A stretch of 64,000 nt of DNA from Xestospongia muta (Eukaryota; Porifera; Demospongiae; Haplosclerida; Petrosiidae): contig OY848917.1 of NCBI GenBank assembly GCA_963693285.1, positions 19,821,745-19,885,744 on the forward strand, in the 5' to 3' direction. Under the pieces are notes generated by a model. The model made no database searches. It saw nothing but the letters and a program-made list of their open reading frames with translations, and was not told the DNA's origin. Position numbers and translations under genes: made by a program. Below are positions 1-50,870 of the stretch, piece after piece. How positions within the stretch are numbered: position 1 is the stretch's first letter; each line of letters opens with the position of its first letter.

Positions 1-1104
1 TATATCCTGATAGAGATATGTTGGAATAAAGTGTAGATATGTGGCCATTAAACCAGTCAACTATAGGAGTGTTACAGTTACCATAAACAAAGATTGGATT
101 TGATTCAGGCTCAAGTGAATTAGTCAAGTTATGACAAGAGAGGCATTCCATTAGACCACTACCAGATGATAAGTCAGTATCATTGTGGTAATCTAAGTGA
201 TATGATGCTTCAAAGCCATCCACTTTTACTATAACAGCTGTTGCTATATCCTCTAATTCTCTCACTGTGATACTACCAGACATTAGACACGACTGGCACA
301 CATCATCAACATATGAAGCAAAATAGTATACACCAGACTGTGTAAATGTGTATGAATAGGTCCCTTCAACACTAGCTGTGCTTTGGAAGCCACCTCTAAG
401 ATAATTTGAAGTAGTAGGACCAGCAGTTTGATATACTTCAAATTGACGAAATTTAACGAAACTTGCACCTGTCCAATTCCACTAAAAAATACAATAATTA
501 TAAAATGAAAACAACTGTAATTACATGTCTTATTTAACAACATGGTGGTAGTAACCCAATATAATTGGTATGCTTGGAATTAAAAGCTACATGTAACTTA
601 GCTTGTCACAAAAGCCATAACTTACATTAGACTACTGTTAATACATACTCTAATATTAGAACAGACTATAAGAATATCTGTATTAATTGACTTTGATTTC
701 TTAGGCTTTTTTAAGGACAGGGTTTTAAGATCATTCATTCAACTTTCAAACAATAGAACTATCAACTACCATATTCCACATTTGAGGAAGGCAGAAATAT
801 GGAAATACTACACTTTTGTCAGTGAACGAGTGTTTTGAAACTTCTCCATAACTGTCAAGCTGTTAAGATAAGCAACTCAATGTGATTTAAATTGATTCTA
901 TGGAATCATTCAAGTTGATTTAATGAGAGTTTATCCCATCATATCAAATTGACAGAAGTCCATTTTGAGGCTATGTGATCTGAAACATTACTACCTTTCT
1001 TGTATGCGTCAATATTTTTAATTTATAATAAAAACTTACAGTGACTGTGTCTCCAGGTAAAATCTCAATATTAGCAGGATTCCAAGCAAAATAACATCCA
1101 AGAA
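1..1104 (-). CDS. Cupredoxin-like exon and start of giant last exon, copy 1 (truncated by window)
   Basis: Exon 1040-1104 encodes FAWNPANIEILPGDTVT and joins in phase 0 to the exon beginning at 481 with WNWTGASF. Together with ..GTYSYTFTQSGVYYFAS and GSITV this forms a cupredoxin-like fold, as in vertebrate PKHD1L1. Its copper ligands are not evident, so a structural role is likely. Copy 1 differs from copies 2 and 3 here (VKFRQFEVYQ against VIPRQFEVHQ). The intron 482-1039 (558 bp) is conserved in all three copies and holds nothing recognisable. Coding continues beyond base 1. Confidence 0.75.
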
Positions 1105-4100
1105 CTATTGTTGAGAACATAATATGACATACACAATGAATATATACATACTAATATAAAAGACACATACCTGCATGTTGTCCACTATTCTCTATAAGGT
1201 GTTCCTTTCTTGTTGATGAGGTAACACATTCAATATTCTCATAAGTTACTGTGGTAACGTTACACTCTATTCCTAGTCCAGTGGTGACAGTCACATTAGA
1301 TCCAAAACCACTTCCTTTTATAGAAATCTTAGTTCCTCCAAGTAAAGAGCCACTACATGGTGTCAACTTTGTTACTATGAGTTCATAAGCAAATACTGGA
1401 AGCATAAATGGAGAGGTTGTATTGAATATCTTAAGAGAAAAATAGTCGAGTATTTCCATTAGTGAGATTGATTGTTGATCAATTATATCACTTTGTGACT
1501 CATTGAATGCTACTCCAAAGGTAGTACTACGAACAGACACATCATATACTCCAGGATTATGTGGTGAAGTTGTACAGTTTATTTCTGTGTTAATGAATGA
1601 TGTTATAACACACAAGGCTTGTCCAATAGTAATGACAATGTCTGACATATCTGTTAAGTTGAAGTTGTCTCCGTTAATGGTAAGTTTTGTTCCACCATAG
1701 ACCGGTCCAGATGATGGACTAATTGATGTAATTGTAGCTGATGAATTAGCAGTGTATTCATAGCCAGAATCAATTATGGCTGTCACATCATTTACAACAA
1801 CTGTAACATCAACTACATCTGAATCATGTGGCTGTGGTGTACAAGTCAATACTGTTAAGTTTGAAGATACAATAACACAAGGAAAGTCATCAAAAACAAC
1901 ATAATAGTCACGTGAGAAGTAAAATGGTATGTTAGGGGGTTTAGTAATATTGGACATTGTTGGGAACCCCACTCCAGTAATGGTGACTAAATTTCCACCA
2001 CTAATACTTCCTCTGTCAGGTTTGATGGAATTAACAACTAAAGAATATTGGAAAATGGAGGAATTTGGAGTTGATGATATTGAATAGCCAACACCATCAA
2101 CATGTACACTGACATTTTGTGGTCCAGCAACATTAGGAGTTGGTACACATGATATGACAGTATCATTGACAGATGTAACATCACAGGGACTATTACCAAT
2201 AGTAACTGTTACATTATTGATATCATTAGTAAAGCCAGTACCATAGATAGTGATTGGAGTGCTATCTTGACCACCAATGGAAGGGGAGATTGACATGATC
2301 TGAGGAGTAACTTCAAATGAAAATTTAAAACTACACCTTCGACTCCTACAAGAAGCTGGGATACCATTAACCAAGACTTCAACCTGTGAATTGAGAAATA
2401 CAATATAAATCTTTGATGAAAACACTTGTATTTATATTCTGCTGATACTTCATACTACTATCATTCAGTGTTATATATGACCTTCAATGTTGAAATACAT
2501 GTAATATGACTTGTTATTATAATACTATGTAACATGATATAATGTTGAATGTACTATTATCTACCTGTGGTTTTAGTTCAGGTAGCCGTAACATATCTCC
2601 TCGGAATGGTCTTAGCCACACACCTCCATTAACAATGGGGACTACAGAAATGTTTACCATATGTCCTGACAGACCACTCCCATTAGCTGACATCAGTGGG
2701 AGGTCACCTCCTCTACTTGTCCACTTAATACTCCATATATAACCACTACAGTCTCCACTACGAGTTACTTCAAATCCACCTTCATTTGGGAGATATGTCT
2801 CTAGTAATGTTTTAAATTCAGAGGCTAAGACATTTGCTGGTATATTGTATACTGTTTGGTTTTCAAATGTAAGTTGAAATGTTCCAGTAACTGCTGGAGC
2901 ACCAGAATAGAGTCTTGATACTAGTACATTGTTTGGAGAAGATGACAACAAAGGCATGTTATAACCACATTGGTGAACTTTGAACTCTACAACATAACGT
3001 GAGACTATTAGGTTACATGACAATGGGTCTTCAGTATCATAACAGATCAAGTCAGTTGTGGGAGAAGCATTTGATACAGTGACTGTATCAACAAAGACAC
3101 TGTTAGGTCGGACAGCAGGTTCTAATTGTGTGACTGAAAAATAAGAAAACATAATAAATTAAATAAGAGATTTATAATAATACCAGTAGAATGTGTGCTA
3201 ATCTAATTACTTTATGATCTTTGATGTATTTAAAATAGATAGAAATTAATAAATAAGTCAAGTCATTAGTATGTCTCTAATTATTTATTAAGAAGAGTAC
3301 ATTACATAATATCTAGAATTACCTGTAGGTATTGAAGTAGTGAACATGACTTCATCCACCCAAAAATCAGTTGAACTACTACAAAAGTAAGTACTGAGTA
3401 CTTGATATGTATTGGATGCCTGATTGTAATGCTCATTAAGATAGCTAAAGACATCAACGCATAGGAACCTCCACTTATTTGTACCACTGTTATCAGTAAC
3501 TGAAATATTATGTATATCAGTTGTTGTTTGTTCATTAATACGTCCATTTATCCACAGTTCAGAATTAGGTAGTGTACCATAGACAGCAAAACATACCTAT
3601 AATAAATATAATATAATATATAATATAATCAAAATAATAATGATACTTACATATCTGTACCAAAAACTTGAAACTGTCATTGGATCTACTCTCTGGCCAA
3701 TCCTCTCATCTAGTGTCTGATTATATTGCCACACAATTGTAGGATTTTTCAAACTATATCGACCACAATATGGTTCATGGCTATTATCAAGAGTACCATA
3801 AAGATTACATTGAACAATTACGTCATAGCCATCTTTAAAATAGACATCGCCAGCTCCTGTGATGTGACAATTGGTTGTAAACAGTGCTAAGAGTTCTCTC
3901 GTCACATTGTTAGCAGACTCATGTATTGGCATAGAGTTTGTGTGTCTTGAACTCAAAGACAAATTGAAATGGGTGGGTTGAGTAAAGTCTTGTAGGACAA
4001 AAGAGGTGTGGTTACTCTGATTGATAAATTTGAAGTCCACTAAGTCTTTTTGATCTGATATGAAGATAATTGACAGTTCCAGTTCATTGTCTATGTCAGT

Positions 4101-7100
4101 AGTAACATTTATGTAAACTACAACTCTACCAAAACTCTGTACTGTTGGAAGATTATTCAATGCAGATGTTACAACAGAGGCATTGTCACTGTCAGTTAAC
4201 TCATGAGTTATATTGTTCAAGTAGGAGAGATAATAAGTGAAGTTGTTATCTTCTGAATTTAAAGTGATCACTTGTATCTTGGGTTTAGCAGTAATATTGA
4301 TTTCCTATATAAATAATAATGTAAATTGTATGTACATATAGTTTAATTATCAAGTATGTTGTGATGTATTGGACAGCAGCAGATCTGAGGGTTATTCCAT
4401 TACAAAGCTCACTTTGTAACGTATCCCATTACAAAGCTCAATATAGACTGGTCTATAATGTGTTTGTGCCATGTGATTACAGTACTATATCTGGATAAAG
4501 ATATGTATTCTATAGATAAATGTATGTATGCTGTAGGTAAACATATGAATCCTCCTCTCAAAATAACTGTAGAAGGCATACCTAGACATTTTAACCTTTT
4601 ACATGCACTCATCACACATAAATTACACACAATACATATATGCACTCACACATATATCATACATAATACATATCATATAGATGTACATGTATAATAACAC
4701 ACCTGTGTTTCATTGACCACCACAGATTGTATTGTCACTTGTTGTTCTTCATGGTCAGCATCAGCTCTATCTGTAGTCCAATTTAGACTATGTACCTTAG
4801 CACCAATTCCAATATTCCATCCTCCACCACCTTGTTGATGAACCGCTTCAATATAATAGGCTTTACCTGTAGTTGAATGATTATAATTGTAAGTAAAAAC
4901 CACATACTATGCTGTGTCCAACTGTTATGACTAAGAATAATAACTTTGTATTTCATTCTAAATGAAGCATAATAATTTCTTAATAAAAATATATTTAATT
5001 ATTTCTACTCTTACAATCATCACTCAATATGATATGTAGTCTCATTAATATAATACATAATTTACATGTTAATACTAGGAATATGTGAATGTGTAGGGTT
5101 TGCCTCATGCAGTGATAACTTAGATTTAATGACAATGCAGCTTTTGATTTATAGTCTGTTCAGAATATTAGTAAACTTGTGTAGCATATCTGTATACCTA
5201 GCTTCTAACTTAGTCATTGATCTTATTCACCTTCACACTGCTCTAGACATCTTATACGTATTGTTTTATTGTTTTAAATATGTCTGTTTTTTCCTTTCCT
5301 CAAGATTACATTGCTAAACATTGAATAAAACTTTTTGCTGTGAAAGTAACTGATCACGTGCTTTTGCATACCTGTGGTTCAGAGTTTTGGTAAAGTAATT
5401 ATTGCATTCCTAAGCCTAAGCATGACTGAACCATAAACAAATACACACATATATATCGGCAATAATATATAGTTTACACATAAACATACACAATGTACAT
5501 AATATACACAATATGGAGTTGTTAAAACAATACTTTAGTTAATAACATTTAATTATATTCCAACATCTGTGATATACATACCTCCTTGTAGTGGAATCGG
5601 GCTAGAGAATTGGGTGTCAAAATAATCCCACCTTCTTCTAGTATAACTGTCACATGTAATTAATTTTTTATGTTCTCTTGAAGTGTTAGGACTAAGATAT
5701 AGACGTAATTTATTATCAGATATAAAGTTGAAGGTATACAAACTGTCTATAGGTGGTACAAAAAATCCAGAGTAACGTTGTTGAAATCTATATATTTCTT
5801 TAAACTCTGCAGGATAGCTGCTGTCACGATAAGCTCTCTCTTGAACTGTCCAGTTAAAACTAGTGTTAGGATAACCATAAGGACGTTCTTCAACTCTGTC
5901 TAAGTTTGATGAATAATCCTCTGTCCATACTTCACGTACTATGCCACGCCCACCTGAAATATTAAAATAATTGATTAAAAACCTAACTTTTTCAGACCTA
6001 CCTGGATACACAGAACTAATGGGAGGAGCTGGTCTTGTTATACATTGTATAGTAGTACCTGTGTAGTTGACTACATCACAAGGTACTCCTACATAAATCA
6101 AAATACAATACATGAATAAATTTGTAATTAAACAAGTGAACTATGTTATGATCAAATCAATATAAAAAATATATGTCATAAGTAACATAATATACCAGTA
6201 TATTATATTATATTATATATCATATATAATTTTCTATAGATTCAATGAATGGTACTTCAGTACTCTCTAAGATATATGGTTAGAGACCAAGATGGAGAAT
6301 ACAATTCTTCTGGTTACTAAGCAACAAAAGTAACTGATGCCAAGATCTCTAATTAGCTTAGACATTAGTTTGAAACATGTCTCTGATACAGTCCAGATCT
6401 CAAGAAGAGAGCACAAACTTTGAAACTACAGTAGACTTGAGCATATAGTTACATGTACATGTAATGTTAAAAACATTATGACCATCACTTGTTGAAGGAT
6501 TATGTTAAAGTATATAGAATTATATAAACATTATTATGAATTATACATCATATTAATATTATACCTGAAATAAATGCTTTAACATCTCCCAGTGGATCAT
6601 TAAAGTGTATTCCATATATGGTAATAAGTGTACCTCCATTAGGACTACCTACATTAGGTTCTACTCGTGTGATATCTACCATACAGATAATAAAGTAATA
6701 TTAATAAAAGAAATATAACACATAATACCTGAGTGTGTTTGAAAGATATATTGTCGTAGTTTGTTGTCTACTGATAAGATCTCTTGTGAAATGTATGAGC
6801 TAAGAAACAATAATATGAATAAACCTATAATAATATTCATTTTATTCTACATAATATACATGCACATGGAATGTGTCTCATATGTTGTGTGAGATATTGA
6901 TATAGTCCTCCTCCTAAAATCCCACCCAACACACAGACTGGCATTAAAAAGCTGTCAAATATTATAACTTCACTTATGAAGGTGTAATCAATACTCTTAT
7001 TTATAAGAGTATTGATTACACCTTCATAATTGAAGTTATATAAACAACTAAAAGTGTGGACAGTACTTTATAGTAACAATATTAATACTTACTTTCCAAA

Positions 7101-10100
7101 TAAGGAGAGTACTAAAGTAGCATTCATTGAATCTAATAACAAATTAAATATAATATATAATATAATATACTGGTGTATTCTGTTACCTATTCTGGTGGTC
7201 TCTGGTTGGCAACTGATATAACCTAGACCCCGACTTGTAGTAAGTGCACCACCATATCTAACAATGAAATAAAGGAGACCATCTTATAAATAGAATAATG
7301 TGATTACTGTCTGAATTGAGAACATTAGTTCTAGTCTCATACTAGTTAAATGTGTTATTTTACTTTACTATCAAAGGATGACTCTCAATGTATTTTGTAT
7401 TAGTCTGTCCATGTAGTTAAATCTAAGCTCATTAACTACCACTTCAGTAACAAAAAGTGTATATAATCATAACATGATATTGTAGAATTTTAGAAACTGG
7501 TGAGGTGATTATGTTACTAGATGTACATATAAACATAAAACATACGGTGTCTCTGTATCATTATTCCAAGGATTACACTGTTGTCCACCAATTAATAGTC
7601 TATCTACAGTTTGAGTGATAGCGAAATCTTCATTAGCCTCTTGTGTATCAGATACAAGATACGAGAAGATACATCCACTTATTGTTATATTCATTGGATC
7701 AATACCTACAATGGAATAAGCCATGAATGAAATAGTCTACATAGAAATTATGAAAAGATAAATGATAGTAAGATAGAGTGGCCTTCAAAACATAAATTGA
7801 CAAACTAAAAGAAAAATCATTAAAATACATGAGCTTACAATGTTAAAATATAATATACAACATCTAATGATACATACTAACCAGGTATTTTAGCATGAGG
7901 CCAGACATCAGTCACCATAGGAGTTGCCCAGTTACGATACTAAAGGAGAAACCAGTAATTTAATAAACTATCTAATGTGTTTTAATTAGAACTTTACCCG
8001 AAATATGCAGTTGCACATTCTTCCATTTAAGTCTTTTACAATGTCTTTGCCATCCACTAGAACTTGAAGTTTGTAGTCTTCGTTCTTCTTCTCTGAAGAT
8101 GAACTAAAGAAGACACCAAGAAGGTAAGTTTCTTTACCACAAGATTTACCACAAATTATTGATAGCAGTATCAAAATAAGACAACTATCACTTTTTCTTG
8201 TTATATATTTGTTAATCAGTATTAGTCATATACACTTTATTATAAACTCTTTGACAATACAAATAAAAGAATCCACTTACCCAGTTTTACAAACTATTTT
8301 TGTAGTTGATGTGTAGTATGTCACCACTTGACATGGAATAGAATACTGGTCATTATACAATATGACTCTATTTCCTAAATTGGGATCATCTTTGTTGAAC
8401 TGGTCTATAGAGAAACCTAAACGACAACAAACAGAACAGATGTAATCTATAACTAAATTGAAATGATAACATCCAACACTCATATCATATTGCCATTACC
8501 ATAGAGTGTACCAGACTTCTAATGGTATTATTAATAAAGAGAACGTTAAACAATTTTTAATTTAAAACAATATTTCTAACACTGATTTTTAAATTAAGGT
8601 ACTCAAAAATCACATTGGATTGCTAAGCACCATGTGAAACAAGATTATAAATTCAAACAATTCATTCTATAATTGTTTTAGAAGATAATATTTTACAATG
8701 AAACTTTGACTATAGCTATAAAGGCTATATAATTAGCAGTAGTGTTTATAGAAGACTATATAATTATAGATTACTAGAAAAAAATTAGGCAGAGAAATAA
8801 GCTAGGAAGAAGTTTCAAGCATCATCAGTCACACCCATCATTGTTGTTGGTGGTTAAAGAATGTGTTTTAATTTCATTTGTTACTTTGAACAATTAAAAC
8901 TAATATACCAGTATACACAACACATTATCCAAAACATTTATGACACTGCCTGCATACCGTGTGTGCCAGGCAGTAAAAATTAAAGTATGTCACTAAATGA
9001 GCTAATTTGTAAGACAATAATTCTAACAATATCAGTAAATATGGTGTCTTTATACATAATGTGGCAGTTAGTATCAATGAAACTGAAATAGAAGCATTTA
9101 AGAAACATATAAATTAAGGTAAAGTGGAAATACATAAATACTGTTTAGTGAGTTACTACATATCATTAGACTCATTTACAAACCTCTTCCATGAAGTGTT
9201 AGCAATGTACCACCAGCATAGCTTCCATATCTTGGAGTTATCCGTGACACATCTGAATATAATATACACAATAATCTTTTATAAATAGTTATTATTATAA
9301 CTAACAGTACAGCATTAGTATGTATAATAACTTACTGGGTATTGTACTATCTGTATTGTCAGAAGGATCAGCAGGTATGGCATTATCAGAGTTCTCAAAG
9401 GCTATGTATGAAATATAATGTAAAATGTAAAACTTATACAAGACATCTGTAAAAGCAATATGTCATTAGTACAGAAAACAATCACCAAATAAGGTAGTAA
9501 CTTAAACAATTTGTTCCCTGTGATCTTATTGACTATCTCAATACACAATCAAACATCAATATCACATTATATCATCACATGATGAACATAATATGACATT
9601 TTACAACTGAATAGACTATAATGTACTGTTGTATGTTGATGTATATATTATATGATGATGTGTAACAGATACAACAGTATAGATATGATATGTACATATT
9701 TGATGTTCATTAAGTAGAGAGGAACAAGATTATAATTGAAAAATCATCCTATAATTGTTTTGGAAGATACTGACTTAATAGTGAAACACTAACTAACTAG
9801 AGCTATAAATAATGTATAATTAGCAGGAGTGTCTATAGAAGAGTGATAGCTATAGAATACTAGAAATATAGAAGAACAAGCTAGTAAAAAGCTTTGAGCA
9901 TTGTCAGTAACACCTATTTGTTGTACTGCTCAAAGTTAGGGTTAATGAAATTCATTGGTTGCTATATGTATTGGTAGTTAAAGGATACATTTTTCCATTA
10001 TAAGGTCTTGAAAGTCACATACAACAATAATTATATTAAAATTGGGAAAGTGGATATAAACACATATACATAACATGTGGTCCAAAATGATTATAGAACC

Positions 10101-13049
10101 GCTTGGCACTTAGTATGTAAAGAAAACTTATTAAAACATATATCACATTATTATTATCCTGTGTTTACTACAGTGCTACATGTCTCAAATTACATAAACT
10201 ATTGTAGAAATCAATATTACTTTACATTAGGAAATAGCTTAGATAACTACCTAATTAGAATGTGTAGATACATGTACATGTACAAATTAATGTAAACTAA
10301 ACCACTTTGTGTTTGCAATACTATACAAATAGTTAGAGTGTCACAAACCAATGTCTGCAGGTACTTTGAAACTATTATTAAACTGGTTACAGTTCTAACT
10401 GGTTTTAATGGTATAGAGGTACATATATGAACATAATGTGTACAATAGGTAGTATTATTAACACAGTTGTCTATCAATAACACCGAGGAATCTAATGGTA
10501 TGATACCATACTAACTACTGATATCATGAAACAGTACACTATATAATGATGATACAGAATTTTAAAGGCATTGATCATATCAGTGATAGTAATTGGATTA
10601 CTTCTGTAACAATGGGAAGATAAAATTTGATAGTATAAGATGTAAGGAATTACTATTGGCCAGGAACAGTAATAACTAAACTGAACCAAATATTCAAAGA
10701 CAAATATGGTTATCGAAGACAAGCATCTAACAAATCATGTGGTATATTAACATCGCGAGAATGAGTTGGAGTGTTTGAGGGAGTAACAACATCTTGTCTC
10801 CTTGTCATAAAGTAAAATCTGGTGAATTTCCTGTTTTTTGGGTGTAGCACTAGGAGTAACAAAGTGTACTGTCTAATGCTTAATAAGACAATTTTGTTGA
10901 CTAGTAAAATAATTTAAAATTTAGTCATATATCGTATAGTTAATTTTTCTTGTGCTGACCATTGTTGATGCATGTAGTAGCTATCCATTGATGATAGTAT
11001 ACAAAATTCTGATAATAATATTGTTGAAATATGGAGCACAATTGTTAGATAAGTTGTTTGAAATGGTAATAAAGATTGATTGCCTAATTTGTTCAGTTCT
11101 TGTCCCCCCACAGGGAGGATACTATTTCAAATATTTAAGGTCAATGTTACTATGTAAGTGACATGAAGTAGGATCATGTGATTGTTCATAAAACTGGTAT
11201 GTGTTGGAGTATTGAAGTATGAAAATATGCTGTGTGTAAATGACATACCTACCTAAGTCATTCATTAATAGTAAGTGGGTGTTCTTTTATATGACTGAGT
11301 GTCCTACGACTGTTTGAATGTACTAATTGTTTACATGTATCTAGAGCTTTCTCAATGTAATAAAAATTGGAGATCTATATTTAAAGAGTGTACAAAAATA
11401 TTTAAGGTGTTTTGAAGGAGATACTTTGAATCAATTATATTCTATTTTAATTCATTACAATTATTGTCATAGTGTTTGCAAAGAAAGTAATAATAATTTC
11501 ACAATGTTTGTCAAAAACAATACAAATATTGTAATAAACATAACATATCCAACTCAATGTTTATAATGTACATTACTTCACATCATGATGTACATTATAA
11601 ACATGTTTATAATGTACATTATCACACACACACACACATTCAAGTGTGTACATCCATAAGGATACTACAAATATGATTCAAAACAAATCTTAAATAGTTA
11701 GTAGAAAAACATAAATTGTCTACTGTCATGGTCTACATACTCTACTGTTATGATCTACCTACTCTACTCTCATGTCTATATACTCTACTGTTATGAGCAG
11801 TGTTGTAATATCATTATTGTTAACTCACCACACAATCCGTTAATACATTCAGGTGCATCAGAAGGACACTGGCTGCAAGACTCTCCAGGAACAGGTACAA
11901 TATTAGCAACAGCTCTAACAAATAGAGAATAATAATTTGTTATTTATATTATGTTATATAGTTTACACAGTAACTACTATAACTGGATTAAGTTAAACAT
12001 ACAGATCATAATTACCCTGGTGCATAGAAACATATTACTACAACTCCTGTACCAATGGCATGACATCGTTGTTCAGGAGAGAAGTATGCAGCACCACAAC
12101 CAATAAGATATGTGTCAGGAAATAAGATCTACAAAGAAAAATACTTTATATGATCTGTGAACTCTATATTTAATTGACAAGTACAAGTTTACACAAAAGG
12201 CAATACATTTTTCTACACACAATTCACTATGTATCATATGTACGTCTCACTTAACTACTTAAAAAAGTAGAATAACTAGAATTCTTTAAATAAGTAAAAA
12301 CATTACTATAACTACATGTGGTGGCAGTATGGTTGGTTAGATTCTTATTAATCACTGATAATTGTATTATATACTTTTACCACCAGCTAGTTATTATTAG
12401 CAAAATATTCCTGTTTATAATTATTATCATCAAGTCAGTGTTGTTAGTGTTACATGCTCTATTAGTATCATTAAAATCAACATCTATAATACTAATTGTT
12501 TGAAACTGCTGATGTGTAACTGATTGTTAATATAGGCATGTCAACAAAACACTTTATGAAATTAAATGTAGTGATACTTACTTGAGCTCGATTGATCTCC
12601 TTGTACTGACAGTCTGCAGTCACAGTTAACCAACAACTTATTACTTGACTCAACACAGACTGGTTGACTTGAACAGCAGAGGAAAGTAACTGACGATTCT
12701 CACCAACCCAACTAAACTTAGAACCAACAGCTGTTGAAAGGATATCTTTAGAAGCAGGTTCATTGCTACAACTACGAGCTGTAGCTTCTGCTATTTCAGC
12801 AAGAGGTTGGCTCCACTCCTTTGGAAGAGGAATATATTGTAAATTGGAGTAATGATGTATTGAACTTACCATTCGTCTCATGTTGGCAGCCTTCTGTTCA
12901 TATCTAGCACTGTTATGTCGATCAAGAAGATACTGCTTTTGATCTCTTGTTAACTGGCAATAGCAACTCGAGAAAATACAGACAAGAAAAACCAGTAAAT
13001 ACATCTTGATGATTGGAGCCATTTTAGCTCCACGATAAGAATGGTTCAT
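1..13049 (-). CDS. Fibrocystin-L (PKHD1L1)-like giant receptor with N-terminal CAP domain, tandem copy 1 (3' end outside window)
   Basis: This is a large single-pass surface protein gene read right to left; the window holds its start and about the first 1,800 codons. I traced exons by GT..AG boundaries and matching phases: 12582-13049, 12016-12128, 11829-11914, 9336-9401, 9184-9252, 8281-8416, 7998-8103, 7882-7939, 7546-7705, 7187-7257, 6729-6799 (its start is uncertain because the phase does not match), 6565-6675, 6002-6088, 5582-5953, 4703-4866, 3651-4304, 3323-3596, 2565-3133, 1171-2383, 1040-1104 and <1-481. Domain order is signal peptide, CAP, IPT, PA14, middle region, IPT, cupredoxin-like, then the start of the giant last exon. 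No frame lesion is seen. PKHD1L1 proteins are stereociliary or ciliary surface-coat proteins in vertebrates; the ligand here is unknown. Family assignment is strong. Joining the CAP exons to the rest across a 2.4-kb intron is an inference. Confidence 0.8.
1171..2383 (-). CDS. IPT/TIG-repeat exon of copy 1
   Basis: One 1,213-bp exon (404 codons plus 1, phase 0 in and phase 1 out) encodes about four IPT/TIG repeats. Each has the form ..ITSISPSSGPVYGGTKLTI..N.. with a Cys pair in the strands, for example SISPSIGGQ, SIKPDRGSISGGNLVTITG, ITSISPSSGPVYGGTKLTIN and LTPCSGSLLGGTKISIKG. Sequons are frequent, as expected for an extracellular protein. The matching exons are 28200-29413 (one base longer, frameshifted) in copy 2 and 61432-62644 (same length) in copy 3. 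Confidence 0.85.
2565..4304 (-). CDS. Middle-region exons of copy 1
   Basis: Three exons, 3651-4304 (218 codons), 3323-3596 and 2565-3133, follow PA14 with phases 0, 0/1 and 1/0. They are rich in N-glycosylation sequons and contain VCFAVYGTLPN and W..DEVMF, a pattern of the region between PA14 and the next IPT cluster in fibrocystin-type proteins. They also contain LTFENQTVYNIPANVLASEF and G.C.GYIW.IKW, which resemble a repeated beta-sandwich module of that region. Boundaries GTAAGTATC, GTAATTC and GTAGATAAT are plausible donors. I do not assign a named domain. Confidence 0.65.
4703..6088 (-). CDS. PA14-domain exons of copy 1
   Basis: Exons 6002-6088, 5582-5953 and 4703-4866 encode a PA14 carbohydrate-binding-type module: GGRGIVREVW, then YSGFFVPPIDSLYTFNFISDNKLRLYLS split over lines, then KAYYIEAVHQQGGGGWNIGIG. 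The last two blocks are the classic PA14 strands (a phenotype-like F..P....Y.F....D...L.L and YYiEa...G). The 48-bp gap 5954-6001 has GTAGGT..TTTCAG ends, is a multiple of three and has no stop, so it can be spliced out (giving YPG-GRG) or read through as 16 extra residues. The 715-bp intron 4867-5581 between PA14 halves holds nothing recognisable. Confidence 0.8.
4867..5581 (-). other. 715-bp intron inside the PA14 domain of copy 1
   Basis: AT-rich intron conserved at 32401-33146 in copy 2. No gene, RNA or transposon signature is seen. Open frames here (for example 5066-5317 plus strand) are not kept in copy 2. Confidence 0.6.
6565..9401 (-). CDS. N-terminal IPT/TIG exons of copy 1
   Basis: Nine small exons encode IPT/TIG immunoglobulin-like repeats of the ectodomain. 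Typical signatures are VSRITPRYGSYAGGTLLTL (exon 9184-9252) and DITRVEPNVGSPNGGTLITI (exon 6565-6675), each ending in a G/GF split by a phase-1 intron. Between them lie the strand-rich pieces of exons 8281-8416, 7998-8103, 7882-7939, 7546-7705 and 7187-7257, which match the inter-IPT part of fibrocystins by pattern. The 6729-6799 exon (..SVDNKLRQYIFQTHS) has a start one base out of phase with the preceding exon. Either an AAG acceptor at 6783 is used or a micro-exon was missed. Copy 2 shows the same structure. Confidence 0.7.
6963..7040. repeat. Near-perfect 38-bp-arm hairpin in an intron of copy 1
   Basis: The arms are TATAACTTCACTTATGAAGG.. and its inverse ..CCTTCATAATTGAAGTTATA, with a single mismatch and almost no loop, centred at about 7001. 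Copy 2 has only one arm here (about 39480-39512), which then continues into the same downstream sequence. Confidence 0.85.
8625..8865. repeat. Interspersed repeat, copy a
   Basis: This is the diverged partner of the repeat at 9715-9990. The same pair sits at 41030-41265 and 42150-42420 in gene copy 2, so both insertions precede the tandem duplication. Confidence 0.5.
9715..9990. repeat. Interspersed repeat, copy b
   Basis: About 250 bp beginning GAACAAGATTATAA. It matches in order, with substitutions and indels, the sequence at 8625-8865 in the neighbouring intron of the same gene. Shared blocks include TATAATTGTTTT, TATAATTAGCAG and AAGCTAG. No terminal inverted repeats or coding capacity are evident, so the class is unknown. 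Confidence 0.5.
11559..11621. repeat. Inverted-repeat cluster in intron of copy 1
   Basis: The 15-base arm GTTTATAATGTACAT occurs, then its exact inverse (11588-11602), then the direct form again (about 11605-11619). The matching site in copy 2 (about 44246-44264) has a single direct arm only. Confidence 0.7.
11829..13049 (-). CDS. CAP/SCP domain and cysteine hinge, first three exons of copy 1
   Basis: Exon 1 (12582-13049) starts with ATG at 13049. A second in-frame ATG at 13022 immediately precedes a hydrophobic signal peptide ending near CYC-Q and is an equally good start. CAP hallmarks follow: RHNSAR, then W..L...A...A..C, then GEN. Exon 2 (12016-12128) gives LIGCGAAY and VVVICFYAPG, the CAP2-type end. 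Exon 3 (11829-11914) gives CSQCPSDAPECINGLC, the CRISP-type hinge pattern. The GHYTQ-type histidine motif of classical CAP proteins is absent: QYKEINRAQ stands in its place. Donors are GTAAGT, GTAATT and GTGAGT. If the last donor is not used, translation would stop 12 codons later, giving a separate small secreted CAP protein. Phase-1 compatibility with the next IPT exon favours fusion. Confidence 0.75.
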
Positions 13050-16667: not shown

Positions 16668-17330
16668 TTATAAACAAAAATCAAACAAAATACATATCAT
16701 TAAACAATTAATCCTTTTCAGTTGCAAAATGTACTCCTTTGTCAGTAGAGCAACATTTTCTGCTCCTATTTCACTCATTTCCAAAGCACTGGCAGCTTTC
16801 TCAATAGAATTAATATAGAACAGTCCTCCATTATCAAATAAAAATAGTGGAAATTGCTCTGGAGGATCATAGTGTGGATAGGCATACCATTCCTTAACAG
16901 TTTTAGACTCGATTGATCGAAACAACTTTGCTTTATCTGATGCAGTAAGAGGAACAGTAGTAAAAAATTTAAAAACCTGAGTTGGTAAATTGTGAAGAAG
17001 TTCACAATACTGTTTATCTCCTTACACAGTCATTGTAGTAGGAATTTGGTGACCAATACTACAGAAATTAACAGAAGAGTTCTAAAGGTCATCACTGTAA
17101 ATATCTAATGGATAAGTACAAGAATACCAAGGTCCAGAATATCCAAATATCTTAGGATTAGGGTCTCCTTTGATGAATGTTGCAATAGTATGATTATATG
17201 GTGATTTAACAGCTGCAATGTAAATAGGCTCATTAAAATTGTGGAAGGCAACTTTTGATACATTCAGAGGGTGACTAATAATAACAGCATCAAAATCGGG
17301 AGAGGTCAGGCATGGAGCCAAGTACATTTG
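16668..17330 (-). pseudogene. Prenylcysteine-oxidase-like gene, 3' fragment (spacer A)
   Basis: The C-terminal half of a PCYOX1-type lysosomal FAD thioether oxidase is recognisable. Block DFDAVIISHPLNVSKVAFHN (about 17200-17300) is followed by TFIKGDPNPKIFG. After one or two short introns, VFKFFTTVPLTASDKAKLF leads into [37 protein letters not shown] and ENVALL. These parallel the family's AYPHY.PPE and Y.NGIE.AASAMEMSAI.A.N.ALL motifs. The N-terminal FAD-binding part is missing: sequence just upstream (17331 on) is hAT-like. It is therefore a fragment, probably cut by a transposon. The spacer B copy has an additional nonsense codon. Confidence 0.65.
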
Positions 17331-17860
17331 TAAGGACTTAAGTAAGTACTTTTGAAAAATTTTACGTGCAAGTACAAGCCCTAATAATGAAGATATACTT
17401 AAGTAAATTACAAGTACTTTTGATAGTACTTAATTACAAGTACAAAGAAAAATGATTCAACCAATAGGTTTAATGAATTAGGAAGCATTTGGTAATGCTT
17501 ATTGTTTAGATACTGAATAAAAGATCCATATGTCAAACAGTATTATAATTATGGTACATTATTGCATCAGACAAACATCAACTATTTAAATCTATCAAAG
17601 TTCAGTCTACATCTTTGTGAAAAAGTTTCTACTGTTGAAGATAAAAAAGGTACTTCAAGAAATTCTTTGGCAAGCTTCACAAGAGAGGGAAACTTTCTAT
17701 GATTTCTATGATTCTCTTTATAATATTTGGCTGGATTTGTGTCAATGGAGATACAAGGAGTTGCTAAGTAATTGTCCTTGTTTGAATGACTCTGGAAAGG
17801 AATGGTGTTGGCCTCAGGCTCTGACATGAAGCTAAATAAAGTTTTTTTTTTGAAAGTGGT
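17331..17860 (-). mobile_element. hAT transposon remnant (transposase C-terminus), spacer A
   Basis: The minus-strand frame 17582-17827 encodes TNPAKYYKENHRNHRKFPSL, then LAKEFLEVPFLSSTVETFS. This is the hAT C-terminal dimerisation signature (P..WW..N...FP.LA.LA...L..P..S...E..FS). Next to it, 17331-17450 is full of AAGTAC/GTACTT motifs typical of subterminal repeats in some hAT elements. The rest of the transposase is missing. The same remnant lies at 50311-50870, so insertion preceded the tandem duplication. Exact ends and target duplication could not be fixed. Confidence 0.65.
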
Positions 17861-18186: not shown

Positions 18187-45691
<27,505 letters not shown>

Positions 45692-49653: not shown

Positions 49654-50310
49654 TTAACAAAAATCAAACAAAATACATATCATTAAACAATTAATCCTCT
49701 TCAGTTGCAAAATGTACTCCTTTGTCAGTAGAGCAACATTTTTTGCTCCTATTGCACTCATTTCCAAAGCACTGGCAGCTTTCTCAATAGAATTAATATA
49801 GAACAGTCCTCCATTATCCAATACAAATGGTGGAAATTGCTCTGGAAGATCATAGTGTGGATAGGCATACCATTCCTTAAGAGTTTCAGACTCGATTGAT
49901 CAAAACAACTTTGCCTTATCTGATGCAGTAAGAGGAACAGTAGTAAAAAATTTAAAAACCTGAGTTGGTAAATTGTGAAGAAGTTCACAATACTGTTTAT
50001 CTCCTTACACAGTCATAGTAGTAGGAATTGGGTGACCAATACTACAGAAATTAACAGAAGAGTTCTAAAGGTCATCACTGTAAATATCTAATGGATAAGT
50101 ACAAGAACACCAAGGTCCAAAATATCCAAATGTCTTAGGATTAGGGTCTCCTTTGATGAATGTTGGAATAGTATGATTATATGGTGATTTAACAGCTGCA
50201 ATGTAAATAGGCTCATTAAAATTGTGGAAGGCAACTTTTGATACATTCAGAGGGTGACCAATAATAGCAGCATCAAAATTGGGAGAGGTCAGGCATGGAG
50301 CCAAGTACAT
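49654..50310 (-). pseudogene. Prenylcysteine-oxidase-like gene, 3' fragment (spacer B)
   Basis: Same fragment as 16668-17330. Blocks [37 protein letters not shown] and [17 protein letters not shown] are recognisable. A TGA at 49900-49902 replaces the CGA codon of spacer A within KAKLFRSIES, so the last exon is interrupted. The FAD-binding half is missing as in spacer A. Confidence 0.65.
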
Positions 50311-50870
50311 TTGTAAGGACTTAAGTAAGTAATTTTTGAAAAATTTTACGTACAAGTACAAGCTCCAATAATGAAGATGTACTTGAGTAAAGTACAAGTA
50401 CTTTTGATAGTACTTAATTACAAGTACAAGGAGAAATGATTCAACCAATAGGTTTAATGAATTAGGAAGCATTTGGTAATGCTTATTGTTTAGATACTGA
50501 ATAAAAGATCCATATGTCAAACAGTATTATAATTATGGTACATTATTGCATCAGACAAACATCAACTATTTAAATCTATAAAAGTTCAGTCTACATCTTT
50601 GTGAAAAAGTTTCTACTGTTGAAGATAAAAAAGGTACTTCAAGAAATTCTTTGGCAAGCTTCACAAGAGAGGGAAACTTTCTATGATTTCTATGATTCTC
50701 TTTATAATATTTGGCTGGATTTGTGTCAATGGAGATACAAGGAGTTGCTAAGTAATTGTCCTTGTTTGAATGACTCTGGAAAGGAATGGTTTTGGCCTCA
50801 GGCTCTGACATGAAGCTAAATAAAGTTTTTTTTTGAAGGTGGTTCCAAACTACCCTCAACATGAACTTGA
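50311..50870 (-). mobile_element. hAT transposon remnant, spacer B
   Basis: Same remnant as 17331-17860, with the frame 50566-50862 carrying the hAT dimerisation signature (KFPSLVKLAKEFLEVPFLSS) and GTACTT/AAGTAC subterminal motifs at 50311-50430. Confidence 0.65.

Follow-up and report, generated by a model that had tools for sequence, protein, structure and literature searches.

CAP domains bind metal through a set of histidine and glutamate residues in a cavity, and the full cysteine-rich domain of the CRISPs consists of a hinge and an ion-channel regulator. TMEM2 has, to our knowledge, neither an IPT array nor a CAP domain. PKHD1L1, the gene of fibrocystin-L, is described as the ancestral member of the family that contains the kidney-disease protein fibrocystin, and its variants cause hearing loss (PMC11043200, PMC13424714). 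A metal-binding histidine in its TMEM2-like region is discussed in one of these papers (PMC11043200). A CAP domain on fibrocystin-L is not described in the matches listed for the open-licence literature (titles and the beginnings of abstracts).

In this study, we analysed a window of 64,000 nt, the whole stretch of DNA under consideration, which is part of contig C1 of a 158-Mb, 28-contig assembly, probably that of a sponge, that was also searched. The CAP exons in this window most probably belong to a fibrocystin-L (PKHD1L1) gene, as its 5′ end (probability about 0.94); the predicted product, some 4,800 residues long, is a type I membrane protein.

Structure of the gene

Copy 1 of the gene is intact, with 23 coding exons, 4818 aa and a single stop, at its end (Table 1). 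The model is based on splice sites and on alignment to the other copies and to the JGI protein P0099, and its 3′ part was taken from the adjoining sequence. Translation starts at the ATG at 13022 or at an in-frame ATG at 13049 (minus strand), and down to 6565 all exons have GT-AG borders and keep the frame. The domain order is signal peptide, CAP, cysteine hinge, linker, IPT1, IPT2, PA14 and further IPTs; the IPT array is followed by two G8/CEMIP beta-helix units, one predicted transmembrane helix and a tail. Within the first 700 residues, Pfam recognized a member of the CAP superfamily with 37.4 bits (cut-off 21.1; E 5.4e-9), together with IPT and with PA14, which scored 33 bits (cut-off 24). 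The big-exon frame of copy 2 contains six stretches of IPT and two each of G8 and CEMIP beta-helix. In copy 1, the last exon stays open over 3193 codons and covers the membrane helix (predicted from hydropathy) and the tail. The introns are concentrated in the first third of the gene and these final codons (window 481 to -9097) are intron-free; the 3′ end looks as if its introns had been lost through a cDNA.

The preliminary description of this DNA had placed signal peptide, CAP domain and hinge in the first three exons. The parts were identified correctly but the exons number four, the 51-nt intron (12869-12819) having been read through as coding because its length is a multiple of three. The phase-1 GTGAGT donor after 11829 is present on the minus strand, as is the phase-1 acceptor at 9401; the exon behind this acceptor, however, which had been taken for the first IPT exon, is the linker (9401-9336), and IPT1 starts in 9252-9184. 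Two further statements hold: there is no nearby in-frame start, the 20 open codons upstream of 9401 being without an in-frame ATG, and the stop reported about 36 nt past 11829 lies in frame, 12 codons after the donor.

Table 1. Features of copies 1 and 2 in the window (window coordinates)
Feature	Position	Strand	Details
Copy 1			
Exon 1, signal peptide and start of CAP	12870..13022	-	donor GTAAGT; open in 11/11 copies
51-nt intron	12819..12869	-	82-nt intron at the equivalent site in paralog x; residues missing from P0099
Exon 2, CAP domain	12582..12818	-	
Exon 3, CAP domain	12016..12128	-	
Exon 4, end of CAP and cysteine hinge CSQCPSDAPECINGLC	11829..11914	-	phase-1 donor GTGAGT; hinge aligns with GLIPR1 3q2r
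Exon 5, hinge-IPT1 linker	9336..9401	-	equal length and frame in paralog x; aligned in P0099
Exons 6-9, IPT1 region	7882..9252	-	9252-9184, 8416-8281, 8103-7998, 7939-7882
Exons 10-13	6729..7705	-	7705-7546, 7257-7187, 7132-7093, 6799-6729
Exon 14, start of IPT2	6565..6675	-	
Exons 15-16, end of IPT2 and most of PA14	5582..6088	-	6088-6002, 5953-5582
Exons 17-22	1040..4866	-	4866-4703, 4304-3651, 3596-3323, 3133-2565, 2383-1171, 1104-1040
Last exon, beginning	1..481	-	frame runs beyond the window start to position -9097
Copy 2			
CAP exons	44470..45664	-	pieces 45664-45224, 44769-44657, 44555-44470; first piece includes the 51-nt intron
Linker exon	41726..41791	-	
Remainder of gene	18190..41642	-	1-base insertion near 28899, break near 19125

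A tandem array of CAP-PKHD1L1 genes

Three tandem-repeat units lie, each in part, inside the window. A protein search of the genome revealed a CAP-PKHD1L1 tandem array of 10 copies over about 250 kb (G000:C1:19737889-19990881), with CAP starts spaced 23-33 kb apart array-wide, and an eleventh, diverged copy (paralog x) at C1:18.56-18.58 Mb, 1.2 Mb from the array. The earlier account of two tandem copies was therefore right about the tandem arrangement and too low in number, and one of its two copies, copy 2, is frameshifted: compared with both other copies in the window it has a 1-base insertion near 28899, and the big frame stops prematurely near 19125, which makes copy 1 the better copy for study. 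The window copies share 88.6-97.1% identity with introns counted (aligned blocks of 400 bases or more) and are recent duplicates, so the agreement of copies 1 and 2 with each other was rejected as independent evidence.

The CAP loci found by the protein search, ten in the array and one at C1:18.56 Mb, pair with G8 loci 11:11 on C1, and the IPT1 exon was likewise found 11 times. Genome-wide, CAP exons lie upstream at 11 of the 12 G8 loci. At the twelfth, on C3, the protein search of the genome detected no CAP, which is weak evidence because a Pfam CAP search of the whole genome recovered none of the eleven known copies and gave a single locus, on C11. The C3 locus (G000:C3:10349507-10376645, minus strand) holds a G8 gene in its own right, which has multiple exons and resembles IPT sequences, and the CAP frame on C11 (G000:C11:5624435-5624782; 85.7 bits, Pfam) looks stand-alone, unlike the eleven.

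Other features of these loci were also seen. The G8 region of paralog x is 98% identical, as protein, to that of copy 2, whereas the best CAP piece of this paralog shares 73% identity with copy 1; gene conversion has possibly affected the 3′ part of this paralog. Pieces of a PCYOX-like prenylcysteine lyase (PF07156) lie between the PKHD1L1 genes on the minus strand (window 16671-17429 and 49657-50413). One intron of copy 2 (window 33795-38693) contains a 4.5-kb insert between 184-bp direct repeats that are 96% identical. The insert has four ORFs of at least 150 aa on the plus strand; copy 1 does not have it, and it is probably a retroelement.

A single open reading frame from CAP to the membrane segment in P0099

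The strongest evidence for a fusion of CAP and fibrocystin-L is P0099, a 4540-aa protein encoded on a contig of 15,675 bases and belonging to a cluster of 5 sequences. Its single ORF comprises CAP (29.1 bits, Pfam cut-off 21.1; paralog x scores 36.4), hinge, linker, IPT, PA14 (23.6 bits, slightly below the cut-off of 24), G8, CEMIP beta-helix and a hydrophobic membrane segment. BLASTP matched residues 48-4433 of the spliced window gene to its residues 1-4423 in one HSP (38% identity). P0099 starts within CAP, opposite window residue 48, so its first residues are missing. Compared pairwise, the N-terminal parts of the two proteins (340 against 270 residues) match with E 2e-30, and CAP and hinge alone give 31 bits (phmmer). 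The CAP homology is distant, since in a local search of 133 proteins the window CAP region did not recover P0099; the corresponding region of P0099 did recover it.

The fusion point is carried by this one independent protein. P0099 is the only protein with the CAP accession among the 120 of 735 G8-region matches listed, and a CAP-directed search with its residues 1-175 over proteins of similar length matched P0099 itself only. Many of the G8-region matches look like single-exon predictions on DNA contigs, so that their missing CAP is uninformative. A search from an alignment of both N termini matched 13 proteins, among them a single close relative, P0121, whose 5′ end is absent. This intronless protein (1029 residues, 51% identical) starts 1-2 residues past the linker/IPT1 boundary, leaving CAP uncovered. 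A contig edge, a retained intron or an alternative start could explain where it begins, and it is neutral as evidence.

The intron between hinge and linker

An arrangement of two neighbouring genes would also place CAP exons here: one for a secreted CAP protein, terminated by the stop that lies 12 codons after 11829, and next to it a classical PKHD1L1 with a signal-peptide exon of its own within 9402-11828. Such an arrangement would suit the 2.4-kb length of this intron in copy 1, the in-frame stop that follows the hinge donor in all ten array copies, and the hydrophobic ATG frames with a phase-1 GT found inside the intron in copies c, d, e and f, as well as the echinoderm and hemichordate relatives described below, which begin near IPT1. 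In paralog x, however, only 133 bp separate the two exons, and the scan for hydrophobic frames found no candidate there; the linker exon of this paralog is nevertheless 66 nt long and in the same phase as in the array (compared in 5 of the 11 copies), despite a dN of about 0.5. Moreover, the peptide read through past the donor is not conserved, with 11-14 codons in the ten array copies and 24 unrelated codons in paralog x, and the one candidate frame common to all four of these copies lies, in two of them (d and e), over sequence that is repeated within the window. Together with the single ORF of P0099, these findings led us to reject two separate genes as very improbable. Hydrophobic frames ahead of the linker acceptor were likewise rejected as evidence for a second start, 11 of the 21 other acceptors of copy 1 scoring equal or higher. 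Two PCYOX queries gave no match in the 50 kb around paralog x, whereas both window units carry PCYOX; as paralog x keeps CAP with no PCYOX found nearby, CAP goes with the PKHD1L1 gene.

The same intron could serve both forms, that is, the fusion together with either a short secreted CAP-hinge protein made by intron retention or a CAP-less protein from an internal start, an option compatible with the fusion. An in-frame ATG does lie inside the 133-bp intron, upstream of the linker exon, so a CAP-less product of paralog x is possible; the stop past the hinge donor would end a retained-intron product, and all five copies examined carry ATTAAA, a weaker poly(A) signal, in this intron. Set against this, the four array copies examined (c, d, e and f) lack an in-frame ATG ahead of the linker exon, AATAAA is absent from the intron in d and x and lies at differing distances in e, c and f, and the hydrophobicity ahead of the linker is unremarkable by the acceptor comparison above. 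We regard the coexistence of both forms as unlikely.

The CAP head and its conservation

Among solved structures, GLIPR1 (3q2r) was the sole match to the CAP domain at E <= 0.001 in a sequence search (E 2.3e-10). In the alignment with 3q2r, the first cavity histidine and the glutamate of GEN are kept and the second histidine is asparagine; NRAQ is found in all 11 CAP copies, which thus lack the complete His/Glu cavity set for metal binding. This replacement makes metal-dependent CAP activity doubtful and binding the likelier role. The window protein does not have a full CRISP cysteine-rich domain, as a hinge-like stretch alone precedes the linker.

That copy 2 is frameshifted elsewhere in the gene might be taken to mean that the CAP exons are unused, decaying leftovers that lie upstream by chance. 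Yet the CAP frames are open and the donor sites kept in 11 of 11 copies, P0099 keeps CAP, and dN/dS of CAP against paralog x is 0.30-0.44 in all ten comparisons (pN/pS 0.41 when pooled across 45 array pairs, which are non-independent). CAP is under purifying selection, and decay of these exons is scarcely conceivable.

Relatives in other animals

The animal-named proteins among the 120 of 735 G8-region matches listed are fibrocystin-L-like; no named sponge, cnidarian or choanoflagellate protein is among them, nor among all 13 N-terminus matches. Nine of those listed are named echinoderm or hemichordate proteins, of which the models of P0110 and P0112 begin later than IPT1. In the other seven (P0109, P0113, P0114, P0115, P0117, P0118 and P0119) the IPT1 match starts at residues 27-43, so there is no room for an N-terminal CAP; the CAP accession is missing from their Pfam lists, and in most of them, P0109 excepted, a signal peptide was seen by eye immediately before IPT1. 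CAP, hinge and linker would hence be extra relative to these seven proteins. A MYND-type zinc finger (PF01753) is present in the Pfam lists of P0109, P0115 and P0119, and one was seen by eye in the tail of P0110.

The tail of the window gene, encoded near window 18190-18600 in copy 2, contains the motif (T/N)(I/V)YxN, of which YxN is an SH2 consensus. The motif is found in 13 of 14 sequences (the window gene, paralog x, P0099 and 11 others; P0008 is without it), the 11 others being a biased sample chosen for a tail match to the window. None of 7 echinoderm and hemichordate proteins examined has this form, and P0114 has another YxN.

Discussion

We infer that the CAP-headed PKHD1L1 is a real fusion and, as far as the literature found goes, a previously undescribed PKHD1L1 variant. 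This reading, which the preliminary description had put forward, is supported at the level of genes by the gene structure, the intact frame, the one-ORF relative P0099, the 133-bp intron of paralog x and the purifying selection on CAP.

In the mature protein, a long rod of IPT domains would hold CAP at its outer end, far from the membrane, where CAP might bind a ligand as a recognition module rather than act as a classical metal-binding CAP, because its second cavity histidine is asparagine. The PA14 and G8/beta-helix units could bind or process glycans, and the (I/V)YxN motif of the tail might recruit SH2 adaptors upon ligand binding. It is an improbable but conceivable extension that the array, with its ten near-identical but distinct CAP-headed PKHD1L1 genes and their tail tyrosine motif, represents an expanding family of sponge surface receptors that recognize microbes, self or matrix.

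A CAP head on PKHD1L1 in what is probably an early-branching animal offers a tangible example of how this giant protein has been rebuilt, perhaps into a recognition receptor. It makes ligand binding at the N terminus testable and raises the question of whether this lineage gained CAP or other animals lost it. The ten-copy array also means that genome annotations may wrongly split or merge CAP-PKHD1L1 genes.

Compared with GLIPR1 and other CRISP-type CAP proteins, the window protein shares the CAP domain and its C-terminal cysteine hinge but carries them on what is predicted to be a giant membrane protein, and the histidine of GLIPR1 HYTQ is asparagine in its CAP (in P0099 it is, by eye, not histidine either). 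With TMEM2 and CEMIP it has in common the G8 and CEMIP beta-helix units, and its G8-beta-helix region matches TMEM2 8c6i, RYP-HFHL stretch included; the likeness to these hyaluronidases is one of sequence match. The closest system is PKHD1L1 of echinoderms, hemichordates and human, in which IPT1, IPT2, PA14, the IPT array, the two G8/CEMIP units and the transmembrane helix are colinear with those of the window gene, as judged from Pfam and the colinear alignment with P0099. PKHD1L1 has IPT1 near the N terminus with no domain before it, whereas in the window gene CAP, hinge and linker come first; we treat the preceding CAP as a variant feature that is compatible with membership in PKHD1L1. The window gene differs further in its last exon of about 3,200 codons and in its tail of about 110-120 residues, as against the 9 residues given for human FPC-L (PMC13424714); long tails also occur in the relatives examined from echinoderms and hemichordates.
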